Assembly: GCF_030553305.1 (NCBI RefSeq)
Contig: NZ_JARRAH010000003.1
Location: forward strand, 62,001 to 126,000
From: Halomarina ordinaria
Lineage (GTDB): Archaea; Halobacteriota; Halobacteria; Halobacteriales; Haloarculaceae
DNA: 64,000 nucleotides
Direction: 5' to 3'
Shown piece by piece: positions 47,489-52,708 of this stretch. The notes under the pieces are model-generated. The model was not told the DNA's origin. It ran no database searches and saw nothing but the letters and a program-made list of their open reading frames with translations. Positions within the stretch are counted from its first letter, which is position 1, and each line of letters begins with the position of its first letter. Position numbers and translations under genes: made by a program.

Positions 47489-48610
47489 TCAGTTCGCGGC
47501 GCAGTTGTTCGGGCCGAGTTCGAGTTCCTCGACGTCGTCGCCCGGCTGCTCCGTGCCCCAGTTGATCCGCTTGATCTCGTTGTAGTTCGCGGGCTCGTCC
47601 GCGAGGCTCTCGACGATGGTTTCGACGAACGCCTCCCGGTCGCCCTCCTCGACGTAGCTGAGCAGTTCGTTCGTCGTCTCCGCCTGCAGCTCCCCGAGTT
47701 CGGTCGCGAGCGGTCGGACGTCCTCCTCGCTGAAGTGCCCGGGGAGGACGACCGTCCCGTCGTCGAGGTCGGTCAGCTCGTCGAGGCTGTCGAACAGCCG
47801 CTCGGCGGCCTCGCGGACGGCGTCCTCGGAGCTGTCCTCGAGGTCGGGCCGACCGACGCTTCGGAGGAACAGCGTGTCGCCGGAGAGGAGCGCGTCGCCG
47901 TACTCGAACGAGACGCTGCCGGGGGTGTGACCGGGCGTGTGGCGGACCGCGAGCTCGCGGTCGCCGACCGGGAGCACGTCGCCGTCGGCGAGCTCGGTCA
48001 CGCGGTCGAGTTCCCCGGCGTCCGCCCCGTGGATGTAGTAGGGAACGTCGAGTTCCCCCGCGAGGCGCCGCGCTCCGGAGACGTGGTCCGCGTGGGCGTG
48101 CGTGTCGGCGACGCCGACGACCTCGAGGTCGCGCTCCTCGGCGGCGTTGAGGTACTCGTCGACGTACTGCGTCGGGTCGACGACGACCGCCTCGTCGCCG
48201 TCGTGGACCAGGTAGGAGACGCACCCGGTCCCAGGGCGAACGACCTGAACGACGCCGTCGACGCCGTCGACGTCGTACTGACGGTGGACGCGCCCCCAGC
48301 CGTTCATCCCGTCGTCGACGGACGTCGCGTCGTAGCCGTGCTCACGGAGGAACTCGGCCGCGCGTGCGGACGTGACGCCGGCGACACAGACGACCACGAT
48401 CTCCTCGTCCGCCGGGAGTTCGTCGAGGTGCGTCTCCAGCGTGGAGTAATCGTAGTCGAGGAGTTCGTCGTAGATGGGGAGGTTCGTGCTGCCGGGAATC
48501 CGCCACTCTTCGAAGTCATCCTCCGGTCTGACGTCGAGCACGAACGGCCCGTCCTCGTCGTCCTGTACCCGTCGTGCGACCGTCGTCGGCTCGCATGTAG
48601 TAGTGCTCAT
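47489..48610 (-). CDS. Rhodanese-metallo-beta-lactamase fusion (persulfide dioxygenase-like) 1
   Basis: A 373-residue fusion. The N-terminal rhodanese has its active cysteine at Cys75 (CVAGVTS). The metallo-beta-lactamase domain follows from about residue 120, with HAHADH at 171-176, His228, Asp245 and His292, the ligand set of ETHE1-like persulfide dioxygenases. The last residues GPNNCAAN place a cysteine (Cys370) near the C-terminus. ETHE1 enzymes oxidise glutathione or low-molecular-weight persulfide to sulfite. ATTTAAG at about 48638-48646 is the TATA box for the ATG at 48610. It heads the sulfur island. Confidence 0.88.
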   Translation of the reverse strand: MSTTTCEPTTVARRVQDDEDGPFVLDVRPEDDFEEWRIPGSTNLPIYDELLDYDYSTLETHLDELPADEEIVVVCVAGVTSARAAEFLREHGYDATSVDDGMNGWGRVHRQYDVDGVDGVVQVVRPGTGCVSYLVHDGDEAVVVDPTQYVDEYLNAAEERDLEVVGVADTHAHADHVSGARRLAGELDVPYYIHGADAGELDRVTELADGDVLPVGDRELAVRHTPGHTPGSVSFEYGDALLSGDTLFLRSVGRPDLEDSSEDAVREAAERLFDSLDELTDLDDGTVVLPGHFSEEDVRPLATELGELQAETTNELLSYVEEGDREAFVETIVESLADEPANYNEIKRINWGTEQPGDDVEELELGPNNCAAN

Positions 48611-49000
48611 AACAACCACAACTATACACTACAGCTACTTAAATCAGTTGGCTTCGCGGGCGTGTCGACAAGACGTGGTGCACCGACCGCAGTGGTCCCC
48701 TCGTTCCGTCGAGCGAAGGCGGTGCGGTGCTCGGAGGAGGGGTTTTCCAGATTCGTTCACCCTCGCTACCCCCATCACGTCGCGGGTTCCAGTCCCGACG
48801 GGGCGACCGACGAAACCGGCGTCGACGGTCGGTGTGAGTAGCCTCCCGGCACGAACCGCCCCGTTGTCGTCGCTCCCCGTCGGCCGTTCGCGCGTTCGAC
48901 TCCGAACGGCGTCGTCACTGAGTCCACACCTAATGATTCAGCAGTTATGCAATATTAATCGCGAGGAGCGTCCGCGTCCGACCGTCGCGAGAGGCGTGCG
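48611..49000. other. Intergenic stretch without a supported gene
   Basis: A 390-bp gap between the first rhodanese-lactamase gene and the YeeE pair. The TATA box of the former is near 48640. A tRNA T-arm-like sequence at about 48783-48797 has no matching tRNA around it. Confidence 0.3.
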
Positions 49001-49477
49001 TCAGTCGGTGGAGACGGTGTCCACCGTGTCGGTCTCGTCCGTCCCGGAGGAGCGGGCGAACCCCTGGACGTAGGCGCCGAGGAACATCCCGGCGATGGCC
49101 CAGAGGATAGTGAGGTTCCCGATACCGACGCTCGCGTACGCGGCGCCCGGACAGATACCCGAGAGCCCCCAGCCGACGCCGAAGACGACCCCGCCGATGG
49201 GGACGTTCCGGTCCATCGTCTTCAGGCGGCGGGTGTAGCCGCGGCCGGTGAGCGGCGCGCGGTCGAGGAACCGCGTCGCGCCGAAGAACGTGAGGGCCGA
49301 GACGACGGCGGCACCGCCCATCACGAACAGCAGACCGAGGTCCTCGAACTGGAGGAAGTCCAGAACGATTTCGGGTTTCGCCATCCCGCTGAGGGCGAGG
49401 CCGAAGCCGAAGACCAGGCCGCCCAGGAGGACCACGAGGGTGAACGCGAGACCGCGCCCGTCGTCGTCGGCGCTCAC
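49001..49477 (-). CDS. YeeE/YedE-family membrane protein, second half of a split transporter
   Basis: A 158-residue membrane protein with about four segments. GLSGICPGAAYASVG carries the conserved cysteine (Cys109) of the second repeat of YeeE/YedE sulfur transporters. The start is a GTG at 49477 (reading MSADDDG), which overlaps the stop of the partner gene by 4 bp, so the pair is translationally coupled. In bacteria YeeE (TsuA) imports thiosulfate as a single chain; here the two repeats are separate proteins. Confidence 0.88.
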   Translation of the reverse strand: MSADDDGRGLAFTLVVLLGGLVFGFGLALSGMAKPEIVLDFLQFEDLGLLFVMGGAAVVSALTFFGATRFLDRAPLTGRGYTRRLKTMDRNVPIGGVVFGVGWGLSGICPGAAYASVGIGNLTILWAIAGMFLGAYVQGFARSSGTDETDTVDTVSTD

Positions 49478-49971
49478 GGCGTCACCCCCAGCGCGGCGAC
49501 GACCTGCGCCGTCCCGATGGCGACGGCCATGAACGTCGCGACGTTGACCAGTGAGGTCCCGGAGAGCGACCCGACCCCGCAGACGCCGTGGCCGGAGGTA
49601 CACCCCTTCCCGAGGCGCGTGCCGACGCCGACGAGGACGCCCCCGACGAACAGCCGCCACGGCTGGACCTCAGTCGTCCAGCCGAACTCGCCGAACGCGA
49701 GGGCGTACACCGCGGCGCCGCCGACGATGCCGGCGGTGAAGACGACGCGCCAGTCGCGCGAGGCGAGGTACTTCGCCCGGTTGAACCGGGGGACGTCCGA
49801 GACGTACGACAGCGTGGACTCGAGGAACGTACTCGCGCCCGCGATGATGCCGGTCCCGAGGTAGATGGTCGCGACGCCGAGTCCGATGAGCAGTCCGCCC
49901 GCGGCGTACTGGGCGATACCTCGCGGGAACAGCTCCGCCAGCGCGACCAGCGGGAGTGGTGAGAGCGTCAT
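49474..49971 (-). CDS. YeeE/YedE-family membrane protein, first half of a split transporter
   Basis: A 165-residue membrane protein with about four or five segments. GKGCTSGHGVCGVGSLSG holds Cys124 and Cys131, the signature cysteines that pass thiosulfate or sulfane sulfur through YeeE. It starts 25 bp after the second rhodanese-lactamase gene on the same strand and overlaps the partner gene by 4 bp, so the three form one operon. Transport of thiosulfate or another reduced sulfur compound is likely. Confidence 0.9.
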   Translation of the reverse strand: MTLSPLPLVALAELFPRGIAQYAAGGLLIGLGVATIYLGTGIIAGASTFLESTLSYVSDVPRFNRAKYLASRDWRVVFTAGIVGGAAVYALAFGEFGWTTEVQPWRLFVGGVLVGVGTRLGKGCTSGHGVCGVGSLSGTSLVNVATFMAVAIGTAQVVAALGVTP

Positions 49972-49996
49972 TGGTTCGTGCGGAGCGCCTCCATGG

Positions 49997-51184
49997 TCAG
50001 TCGCTCGTCATCGCGTCGCTGCTCGCGGCGCAGTTGTTCGGGCCCAGTTCGAGTTCGAACGCCTCCTCGTCGGCCGTGTCCCGTCGACCGAGGTTCGTCG
50101 CGATGATCTCCTCGTAGTTCGCCGGGCGCGGGGGCATGTCCGAGAGGATGAACTCGACGAACGACTCGCGGTCCATCGACAGCGCGTCCATCCGCTCGAC
50201 CAGGTCGCCGAGGCGTGCGGTGTGCGTCCCGTCCGCCCGGGCGGTCGCGGCGTCACTGAAGTGTGCGGGCGCGACCAGCACGTCGTCGTCGAGGGACAGC
50301 ACGGTCGACTGGAGCGTCTCGTGCAGTTCGCCGGCGGCCGCGCGGGCCGCCTCTTCGTCGGCGCCCTCGAGGTCGGGACGGGCGACGCTCTCGGTGAACA
50401 GTCCGTCGCCGGTGAGGAGCACCGAGCCGTCGACGAGGTAGGAGGTCATCCCGGAGGTGTGACCGGGCGTGTGGAGCACGTCGACCTCGACGTCACCGAT
50501 CGAGAGCACGTCGCCGTCGGCGACGGTCTCGTAATCGACGTCGTACTCGACGCCGCGCTCGACCGCCGGTTCGGGGAGGACGACGCGAGCGCCCGTCTCG
50601 GCGGCGAGTTCGCGGGCGCCGCTCACGTGGTCGGCGTGGACGTGCGTGTCGAGCGCGTAGGTGACCTCGGCGCCCATCGCACGGGCGTCCTGAACGTACT
50701 CGTGGACGAACGCCCGGAGGGGGTCGACGACGGCGGCCTCGCCGTCGCTGACGACCATGTAGGCCAGGCAGCCACTGGAGGGTCGCTGGTACTGCGCGAC
50801 CGTCGCGTCCGTGTCGACGGCCAGTTCGTGGTACTCGTAGAGACGCGCCCAGCCCTGCATCCCGCGTTCGAGGTTCACGGCGTCGCGGCCCGCGTCGACC
50901 AGTTGCCCGGCGACGTACTCGCTCGACCCGCCCTTCGCGCAGACGACGACCGTCGGGTCGCCCGCGGGGATACGGTCGAGGTGGTCGTCGACCCCCTCGA
51001 GCAGTTCGAAGTAGGAGACGTTGACGACCTCCACCGAGTCGCCGTCGATGTGCCACTCCTCGAACTCGCTCGTCGCACGCACGTCGAGGAGCGTTACGGG
51101 CTCGCCGTCGTCGATGCGCCGCTTGAGCGTCTCGGGGGCGACCGATGCCACGTCCGCGTCCGGGTCGGGAAACGTATCGTCCAT
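49997..51184 (-). CDS. Rhodanese-metallo-beta-lactamase fusion (persulfide dioxygenase-like) 2
   Basis: A 395-residue paralogue of the gene at 47.5-48.6 kb, with the same order: rhodanese Cys82 (CAKGGSS), then HVHADH at 181-186, His242, Asp260 and His308. GPNNCAAS near the end repeats the C-terminal cysteine motif (Cys385), here with nine more residues. The likely function is oxidation or transfer of persulfide sulfur. It starts the operon with the YeeE pair. CCTTATGTACG at about 51210-51220 is its TATA box. Confidence 0.88.
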   Translation of the reverse strand: MDDTFPDPDADVASVAPETLKRRIDDGEPVTLLDVRATSEFEEWHIDGDSVEVVNVSYFELLEGVDDHLDRIPAGDPTVVVCAKGGSSEYVAGQLVDAGRDAVNLERGMQGWARLYEYHELAVDTDATVAQYQRPSSGCLAYMVVSDGEAAVVDPLRAFVHEYVQDARAMGAEVTYALDTHVHADHVSGARELAAETGARVVLPEPAVERGVEYDVDYETVADGDVLSIGDVEVDVLHTPGHTSGMTSYLVDGSVLLTGDGLFTESVARPDLEGADEEAARAAAGELHETLQSTVLSLDDDVLVAPAHFSDAATARADGTHTARLGDLVERMDALSMDRESFVEFILSDMPPRPANYEEIIATNLGRRDTADEEAFELELGPNNCAASSDAMTSD

Positions 51185-51415
51185 CTGTACCCCCTGCTAC
51201 TGGCCGCTCGTACATAAGGGTTCGGAGAGTAATTCCACTATAGTACAATACTATTTCTCCCTCCGTGGCCAGAAACGCGTCTACGAGGCGCTACACGCCG
51301 TCCATAGCCAGCACACTCTGAGCTACTCGTGCTTAGTTTTCCCACGGACCGACAAGCTTTTTACCGACACACGAGTATGGTGCTGTAAGCCCAATACGGA
51401 ACAGGCGAATCCACT
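51185..51415. promoter_or_regulatory. Divergent promoter region of the sulfur operons with inverted repeat
   Basis: A 230-bp divergent region. A perfect inverted repeat ATAGTA-CAA-TACTAT is at 51240-51254, between the TATA box of the rhodanese-lactamase operon and the TusA side, where GCTTTTTACC (near 51355) is TATA-like. The repeat is a good candidate operator for a sulfur-responsive regulator. Confidence 0.45.
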
Positions 51416-51661
51416 ATGAGTACGGAATACACAGTCACCGAGACGCTCGACGTGAAAGGCGAATCGTGCCCGATGCCGGTCGTGAAGACCAAGGGAGCTA
51501 TCGACGACCTGAGTGAGGGCGACGTACTGGAGGTGCTCGCCACCGACTCCGGCAGCGTGAGCGACATCGCTGGCTGGGCGGAGGCCACCGACAGCGTCGA
51601 ACTCCTCGGTCAGGAGGAGGACGCCGACGTGTTCAAACACTACGTGCGCAGGACGGCGTGA
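51416..51661 (+). CDS. TusA-family sulfur carrier protein
   Basis: An 81-residue SirA/TusA protein. ESCPMPVVKTK gives the persulfide-carrying Cys18 in the CPxP signature; the rest follows the family's beta-alpha pattern. It carries sulfane sulfur between enzymes in the cytoplasm. Its stop overlaps a GTG of the next gene by 4 bp and the DsrE2 ATG follows directly, so TusA and DsrE2 are coupled. Proximity to rhodanese fusions suggests sulfur passes among them. Confidence 0.93.
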   Translation: MSTEYTVTETLDVKGESCPMPVVKTKGAIDDLSEGDVLEVLATDSGSVSDIAGWAEATDSVELLGQEEDADVFKHYVRRTA

Positions 51662-51663
51662 CC

Positions 51664-52272
51664 ATGAGCACGGACACGTCCGAACGTTCGTCGACGGAGG
51701 CCGCCGCGGAGCGGACCGACGCGTTCGACGACGAGACCGCGGCCGAACTCGCGGCCGAGATCGACGCACTACGCGAGGAGGTCGCGGACCTCAGAGACGA
51801 GAGCGGGGACGACGAGACCTCGATGGTCATCGTCGCGACGAAGGGGACGCTCGACATGGCGTACCCGCCGCTCATCCTCGCCAGCACCGCCGCCGCCTTC
51901 GGCTGGAACGTGACCGTCTTCCACACGTTCTGGGGGCTCGACATCCTCCACGAGGAGAAGTCCAAGAACCTCAAACTGAGCGCCGTCGGCAACCCGAGCA
52001 TGCCCGTCCCGAACGCGGTGGCGGCGCTGCCGGGGATGGACTCGATGGCGACGCGCATGATGAACCGGAAGATCGCGGACAACGGCACGGCGACCATCGA
52101 GGAACTGATCGACGTGTCCCTCGACCAGGGGGTCGACCTGCAGGCGTGCCAGATGACCATCGAACTGATGGGCTACGACGAGGACGACTTCTACGACGGC
52201 GTCACGACCGGCGTGGGCGCGGCGACCGCGCTCCAGCGCATGACCGACGCGGACGTCCAGCTCCTCGTCTGA
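51664..52272 (+). CDS. DsrE2-family (DsrE/DsrF-like) sulfur-transfer protein
   Basis: A 202-residue protein: an acidic coiled region (about 1-50), then the DsrE fold with VIVATKGTLDMAYPPL, FHTFWGLDIL and DLQACQMTIELMG. Cys162 is the only cysteine and the probable sulfur-binding residue. Such proteins hand sulfur to or from TusA and rhodaneses in sulfur oxidisers. GTG 51658 is an alternative start overlapping the TusA stop. It is cotranscribed with TusA and likely DUF302. Confidence 0.9.
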   Translation: MSTDTSERSSTEAAAERTDAFDDETAAELAAEIDALREEVADLRDESGDDETSMVIVATKGTLDMAYPPLILASTAAAFGWNVTVFHTFWGLDILHEEKSKNLKLSAVGNPSMPVPNAVAALPGMDSMATRMMNRKIADNGTATIEELIDVSLDQGVDLQACQMTIELMGYDEDDFYDGVTTGVGAATALQRMTDADVQLLV

Positions 52273-52321
52273 CCACACCGCCCAGTACACGACTCACCAC
52301 CGAGACACACACCCACACATC

Positions 52322-52708
52322 ATGAACTACACGACACGAACGGACGTGAACGAATCGTTCGACGACGCCGTCGAACGGACGGTCGACGCGCTCGAGGACG
52401 AGGGGTTCGGCGTCCTCTGCGACATCGACGTGCGGGCGACGTTCGCGGAGAAGCTCGACGAGGAGTTCCGCCAGTATCGCATCCTCGGCGCCTGCAACCC
52501 GGGACTCGCCTTCGAGGGACTCCAGGCGGAACCCGACCTCGGGGCGCTCCTCCCGTGCAACGTCGTCGTCTACGAGGCCGACGACAGACAGGTCACGGTG
52601 AGCGCGGTCGACCCCTCGGCACTCATCGGTATCACCGACAACCCCGACCTCGACCCGATAGCGGCCGACGTCTCGACCCGGTTCGAGCGCGTCCTCGAGT
52701 CGCTGTGA
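52322..52708 (+). CDS. DUF302 family protein
   Basis: A 128-residue DUF302 protein with the family's YRILGACNP and LLPCNVVVYE segments; cysteines are 33, 58 and 79. The function of DUF302 is unknown, but it is often found near sulfur and redox genes. It follows DsrE2 by 49 bp on the same strand. Conserved cysteines next to TusA and DsrE2 make a sulfur-linked role plausible. Confidence 0.9.
   Translation: MNYTTRTDVNESFDDAVERTVDALEDEGFGVLCDIDVRATFAEKLDEEFRQYRILGACNPGLAFEGLQAEPDLGALLPCNVVVYEADDRQVTVSAVDPSALIGITDNPDLDPIAADVSTRFERVLESL

Follow-up and report, generated by a model that had tools for sequence, protein, structure and literature searches.

A C-terminal cysteine tail marks a family of rhodanese–metallo-β-lactamase fusions in haloarchaea and bacteria

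The DNA considered here is a 64,000-nucleotide stretch from Halomarina ordinaria (the window), part of a 241-kb contig that is separate from the 2.8-Mb main contig, and our subject is a pair of proteins encoded on its minus strand, fusion A and fusion B, in which a rhodanese is joined to a metallo-β-lactamase (MBL) domain and a short tail with a cysteine lies near the C-terminus. We find that this tail marks a whole enzyme family, and that it belongs to the enzyme rather than to the island of sulfur genes around A and B. To judge by their sequences, A and B are members of what we call the YrkH-type rhodanese–MBL family, defined here by an N-terminal rhodanese, a C-terminal MBL domain and the cysteine tail; what is new is that alignment points to three near-invariant cysteines (Cys82, Cys139 and Cys385 in the numbering of B) as the hallmark of most of its members. 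We tentatively favour the idea that they serve an intramolecular relay, from Cys82 to Cys385 and on to an iron centre, which would replace glutathione as the sulfur carrier. The question matters: the family is universal among the 145 haloarchaeal genomes searched, and YrkH, from the Bacillus yrkE-F-H-I-J operon, has no firmer description than ‘hypothetical second PDO’ (PMC9918477), PDO standing for persulfide dioxygenase.

Fusion A (47489–48610, minus strand) and fusion B (49997–51184, minus strand) were each delimited as an open reading frame and by domain profiles, which place Rhodanese (PF00581) first and Lactamase_B (PF00753) second in both. A has 373 residues from its ATG, or 376 from an alternative GTG start at 48619, nine bases upstream, and B has 395; the two are 43% identical overall, and the 33 bases that encode the tail, ELELGPNNCAA, differ between them at one position. 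The tail lies at 47495–47527 in A, with the codon of Cys370 (ATG numbering) at 47501–47503, and at 50024–50056 in B, with that of Cys385 at 50030–50032. A first-pass annotation of this DNA had both proteins ending in the motif; motif and cysteines are indeed as it described, and A finishes as GPNNCAAN, but B continues for eight further residues. Because of these residues the cysteine of B does not stand at a CAAX position, and a CAAX prenylation signal is ruled out. Two further fusions, on the main contig of the same genome and outside the window, end in GPNNCAAG and GPNQCSAG, and all four fusions are tailed. Across the haloarchaeal fusions examined the tail is present in 178 of 180, and both exceptions (L187 and L196) are broken reading frames. 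Part of that set (L021–L100) was found with a pattern that contained the tail and is a biased subset; in the subset gathered with a whole-length profile, which is free of this bias, 86 of 89 fusions have the strict motif, one has GANNC and two are broken. A and B conform to the consensus LE-x-G-[PA]-N-x-C-[AS], in which the cysteine is invariant among 103 dereplicated relatives and ranks fourth of 395 columns by information. The sharing of the tail is far beyond chance and, since every clade has it, neither chance nor a recent gene conversion between A and B can account for it. So strong a constraint, as read from the alignment, makes it very probable that the tail has a function. Broken copies, with stops or frameshifts near the C-terminus, were seen at three loci (L187 4448, L196 3942 and L275 401–1525), and in the last of these, on a Halobacterium salinarum plasmid, the whole tail can still be read in the following frame.

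The tail does not follow the island. It is found in 95 of 96 copies that sit in the island, the one tailless copy being a broken reading frame, in 26 of 27 that have some of the island genes beside them and in 57/57 that have none. The first-pass annotation would have been refuted had most close homologues with these neighbours been without the cysteine, and the 95 of 96 show the opposite. Moreover, a DsrE2 match is found in 131 of the 145 haloarchaeal genomes, all of which have the fusion, and in the remaining 14 all 16 fusions are tailed (two as GANNC), with a TusA match missing as well from six of these genomes. Such tailed copies and genomes rule out a tie to the YeeE–TusA–DsrE2 genes. The first-pass annotation had reasoned that conservation of a tail between paralogues suggests a function, perhaps as a swinging arm that serves TusA/DsrE2 or YeeE; the first half of this has held up well, the tail being strongly constrained across the family and a persulfide-bearing arm being possible, but its dedication to these partners has not.

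Nor is the tail a haloarchaeal invention, or the arrangement a distinct haloarchaeal solution, as the first-pass annotation had thought possible. Bacillales plasmids encode full-length relatives (35–40% identity) that end REMEIGPNRCAVR or with ELEIGPNRCAL, and a Bacteroidota (Haliscomenobacter) plasmid encodes a protein with the same domain order and tail, ending DLEAGANRCAIQ, whose only cysteines are the three of the family. The bacterial search covered plasmid records, so that the bacterial range given here is a lower bound. In a tree built with the tails removed, a single clade (100/99) holds the bacterial sequences, and the haloarchaeal ones are spread over several deep paralogue clades, every one of them tailed. 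The Bacillales operons also hold TusA-rhodanese, DsrE, TusA and TauE genes, the fusion lying between the DsrE and TusA genes, and their layout is that of the Bacillus yrk cluster. They thus share with the window the rhodanese–MBL order, a tail (GPNRCA in Bacillales), a GC-type cysteine and neighbouring TusA, DsrE and membrane sulfur-transport genes, and differ from it in having a TauE-type exporter in place of the split YeeE, plus a CstR-like regulator; this likeness to YrkH rests on the plasmid-borne Bacillales fusions rather than on the chromosomal YrkH sequences of B. subtilis or B. licheniformis. Two plasmids, one from Lysinibacillus (L251) and one labelled Stenotrophomonas rhizophila (L248, CP031730.1), agree in gene order; for the latter this may reflect a recent transfer of the plasmid, or else a wrong label or contamination in the record.

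Of particular interest is what accompanies the tail within the protein, for 77 of the 103 dereplicated members have exactly three cysteines. Cys385 and the rhodanese active-site Cys82 (codon 50939–50941; Cys75 of A, 48386–48388, by alignment) are each present in 103/103, and the active-site C-x5 loop is otherwise kept too (Ser88 in 102/103). The third, Cys139 (50768–50770), which the first-pass annotation did not mention, is found in 102/103 and corresponds to Cys130 of A (48221–48223), in the TGC motif where the MBL domain starts. The metal-site motif is complete, H181, H183, D185 and H186 (HxHxDH), H242, D260 and H308 of B being invariant; the third His of HxHxDH is kept in 103/103 aligned members, with Tyr in the Bacteroidota relative. 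At the column of Cys139, type I dioxygenases have a Thr, which in the type I enzyme AcPDO (T13, equated by position with the Thr that a Nostoc homologue has in the alignment) is predicted to hydrogen-bond H171, itself hydrogen-bonded to the iron ligand D130 (PMC6060420). This alignment, together with the co-conservation of Cys139 and the tail, suggests that a cysteine next to a presumed iron and a cysteine tail go together in the YrkH-type family. Between Asn364–Gly366 and the tail the columns are variable and the length is about 15 residues (13–15 in 184 of 186).

AlphaFold2 (AF2) models both domains well (overall predicted local distance difference test score, pLDDT, 92.1 for B and 89.4 for A), and the structures that match best are those of persulfide dioxygenases, namely the CstB-type structures 3tp9 (Z 30.9; root-mean-square deviation 2.0, 243 residues aligned) and 3r2u (30.8; 2.0, 242), then human hETHE1 (4chl; 29.1; 1.8, 225) and BpPRF (28.9; 1.7, 224); the top 12 matches are mostly named persulfide dioxygenases (Z 26–31), with glyoxalase II at 21. 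We regard the arrangement as a variant of known persulfide dioxygenase–sulfurtransferase fusions. CstB, a type III PDO–sulfurtransferase, is the closest in fold (Z 31) and has the same two domain types, with an MBL domain that reaches the P-N...N-G region, but there the MBL domain comes first and the rhodanese is C-terminal. Other differences go with this reversed order: the GPNxC tail occurs in none of 23 CstB-type MBL-rhodanese proteins, in which the residue aligned with Cys139 is His (22) or Gln (1), and CstB has Phe at the third His of HxHxDH, in keeping with the Phe/Tyr reported for type III enzymes (PMC6060420), where the A/B family keeps His. Other Halobacteriota carry MBL-first, CstB-type proteins, none with GPNxC. 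The order seen in A and B is itself not without precedent, since Blh (DUF442-ETHE1) of Xylella and Agrobacterium already has an N-terminal sulfurtransferase and a C-terminal dioxygenase, their activities coupled through a thiol persulfide with glutathione as the carrier (PMC5823870). Blh differs in having DUF442 where A and B have a PF00581 rhodanese, and against the NCBIfam Blh model (NF040641) they score 60 and 45 bits, compared with a cut-off of 625, the best stretch lying in the MBL domain.

In the relay that we envisage, Cys82 would take up sulfane sulfur, either from thiosulfate that the YeeE pair brings in or from a persulfide or polysulfide, and would hand it to Cys385, after which the tail would present its persulfide to an Fe(II) centre beside Cys139 for oxidation to sulfite. 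The enzyme would in this way carry its own acceptor thiol and need no glutathione, and TusA and DsrE2, where present, would tap the same persulfide pool without being the purpose of the tail. To our knowledge, haloarchaea and Bacillus are without glutathione, and a carrier in cis, if true, would explain persulfide oxidation in such organisms and would be a new way to couple a rhodanese to a dioxygenase. In DsrC/TusE a conserved cysteine in a C-terminal tail carries sulfur, an analogy of working only, given that DsrC/TusE has an unrelated fold and is a separate protein. In favour of the relay we count the invariance of the three cysteines, the complete metal-site motif, the PDO-like fold, a variable linker with an invariant tip, the retention of the tail where TusA and DsrE2 are missing, the absence of GPNxC from CstB-type proteins, the alignment of Cys139 with the type I Thr and the coupling in Blh. 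Several observations weigh on the other side. AF2 gives a confident linker in B but a poorly defined tail tip (pLDDT about 65 in B and 59 in A), and a linker of near-constant length is as compatible with a docked tail as with one that swings. One fusion, a copy without island neighbours (L024 5992–7179), has Ser at position 139, the sole member to do so. R163, a glutathione contact in type I enzymes, is kept as R269 in 101/103; as for the other contacts, the Lys column of LPKP is mixed (R58 K20 E12 Q8), and Y197 and R214 fall in a gapped stretch. Finally, CstB uses bacillithiol and coenzyme A persulfides (PMC6060420), and a small thiol may therefore serve A and B too. Taken in its fullest form, in which a persulfide dioxygenase of Bacillota, Bacteroidota and haloarchaea would oxidise a persulfide borne by its C-terminal cysteine, the sulfur being supplied in cis by its rhodanese and received beside an iron-site cysteine, with no small thiol involved, the proposal looks rather unlikely to hold in every part.

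The strongest rival gives the tail cysteine a structural or redox-regulatory part, as a counterpart of the conserved cysteine in the C-terminal region of type I PDOs: activity or stability would depend on it, but it would not be a carrier. We consider this possible if somewhat doubtful. Type I PDOs (hETHE1, AcPDO) and BpPRF resemble A and B in their MBL fold, their metal-site motif and a cysteine in the C-terminal region, within a similar short motif, PANxxCG. In AcPDO this residue is Cys224, at the surface and far from the iron, and the C224A variant retains 1.3% activity (PMC6060420), and in hETHE1 it is Cys247, which most predicted ETHE1 enzymes share and which has been observed as a sulfinic acid (PMC4383860); the linker length noted above would likewise suit a docked tail. 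However, the two motifs look alike and do not align: the type I cysteine falls just after the Asn364 position, about 18 residues before the tail cysteine, and no cysteine is conserved at that column in the family. AcPDO Cys87, the partner of Cys224, has no counterpart in the three-cysteine members, the pairing of the tail with Cys82 and Cys139 is left unexplained, and type I enzymes differ further in their Thr at the Cys139 column and in the rhodanese, which is placed differently in BpPRF and is missing from the others.

That the tail acts as an arm which hands sulfur over to the external carriers TusA, DsrE2 or YeeE, as first suggested, now seems improbable. The YeeE halves, TusA and DsrE2 do occur together at 66 of 80 B-type loci, and the Bacillales copies do lie between DsrE and TusA genes, but the tail is just as constant in the copies and genomes described above that are without them, and no TusA, DsrE2 or YeeE gene is annotated within 5 kb of the tailed Haliscomenobacter fusion. 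Less probable still is a cysteine switch, in which the tail cysteine would bind the iron or cover the site when there is no substrate, guarding it against oxidation, and leave for the persulfide: an invariant cysteine in a short tail, Cys139 putatively by the iron site and, in B, a low-confidence tip on a confident linker would suit it, but no other persulfide dioxygenase was reported to behave so in the literature searched. The tail motif strings were not found in that literature, and the cysteine tail is not described there.

The surroundings of A and B are otherwise much as the first-pass annotation had them, two rhodanese-lactamase fusions in a sulfur island. Between them, also on the minus strand, profile matches identify a YeeE/YedE half (49474–49971; C-terminal part of PF04143) and a second half, DUF6691 (49001–49477), whose inferred GTG start overlaps the YeeE stop; these overlapping halves of a split YeeE are found together at most related loci. 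On the plus strand lie TusA (51416–51661; PF01206), DsrE2 (51658–52272; PF13686) and a DUF302 protein (52322–52708), a recurrent but inconstant neighbour. DUF302 genes (L164, L165 and L250 besides the window) recur near haloarchaeal sulfur-transfer clusters, the full island plus DUF302 being seen at 7 of 80 loci, and also adjoin Bacillales yrk-type operons. Related parts are combined differently elsewhere: Thiothrix and Acidiphilium plasmids (L166 3686–5113; L257 732–2214) have an ArsR-rhodanese fusion beside a stand-alone, tailless MBL protein of dioxygenase type, the rhodanese being joined to a regulator rather than to the MBL domain, and a Nostoc plasmid (L254 246–2191) encodes a separate phosphatase-like protein, a type I dioxygenase and TauE in what looks like a split Blh operon.

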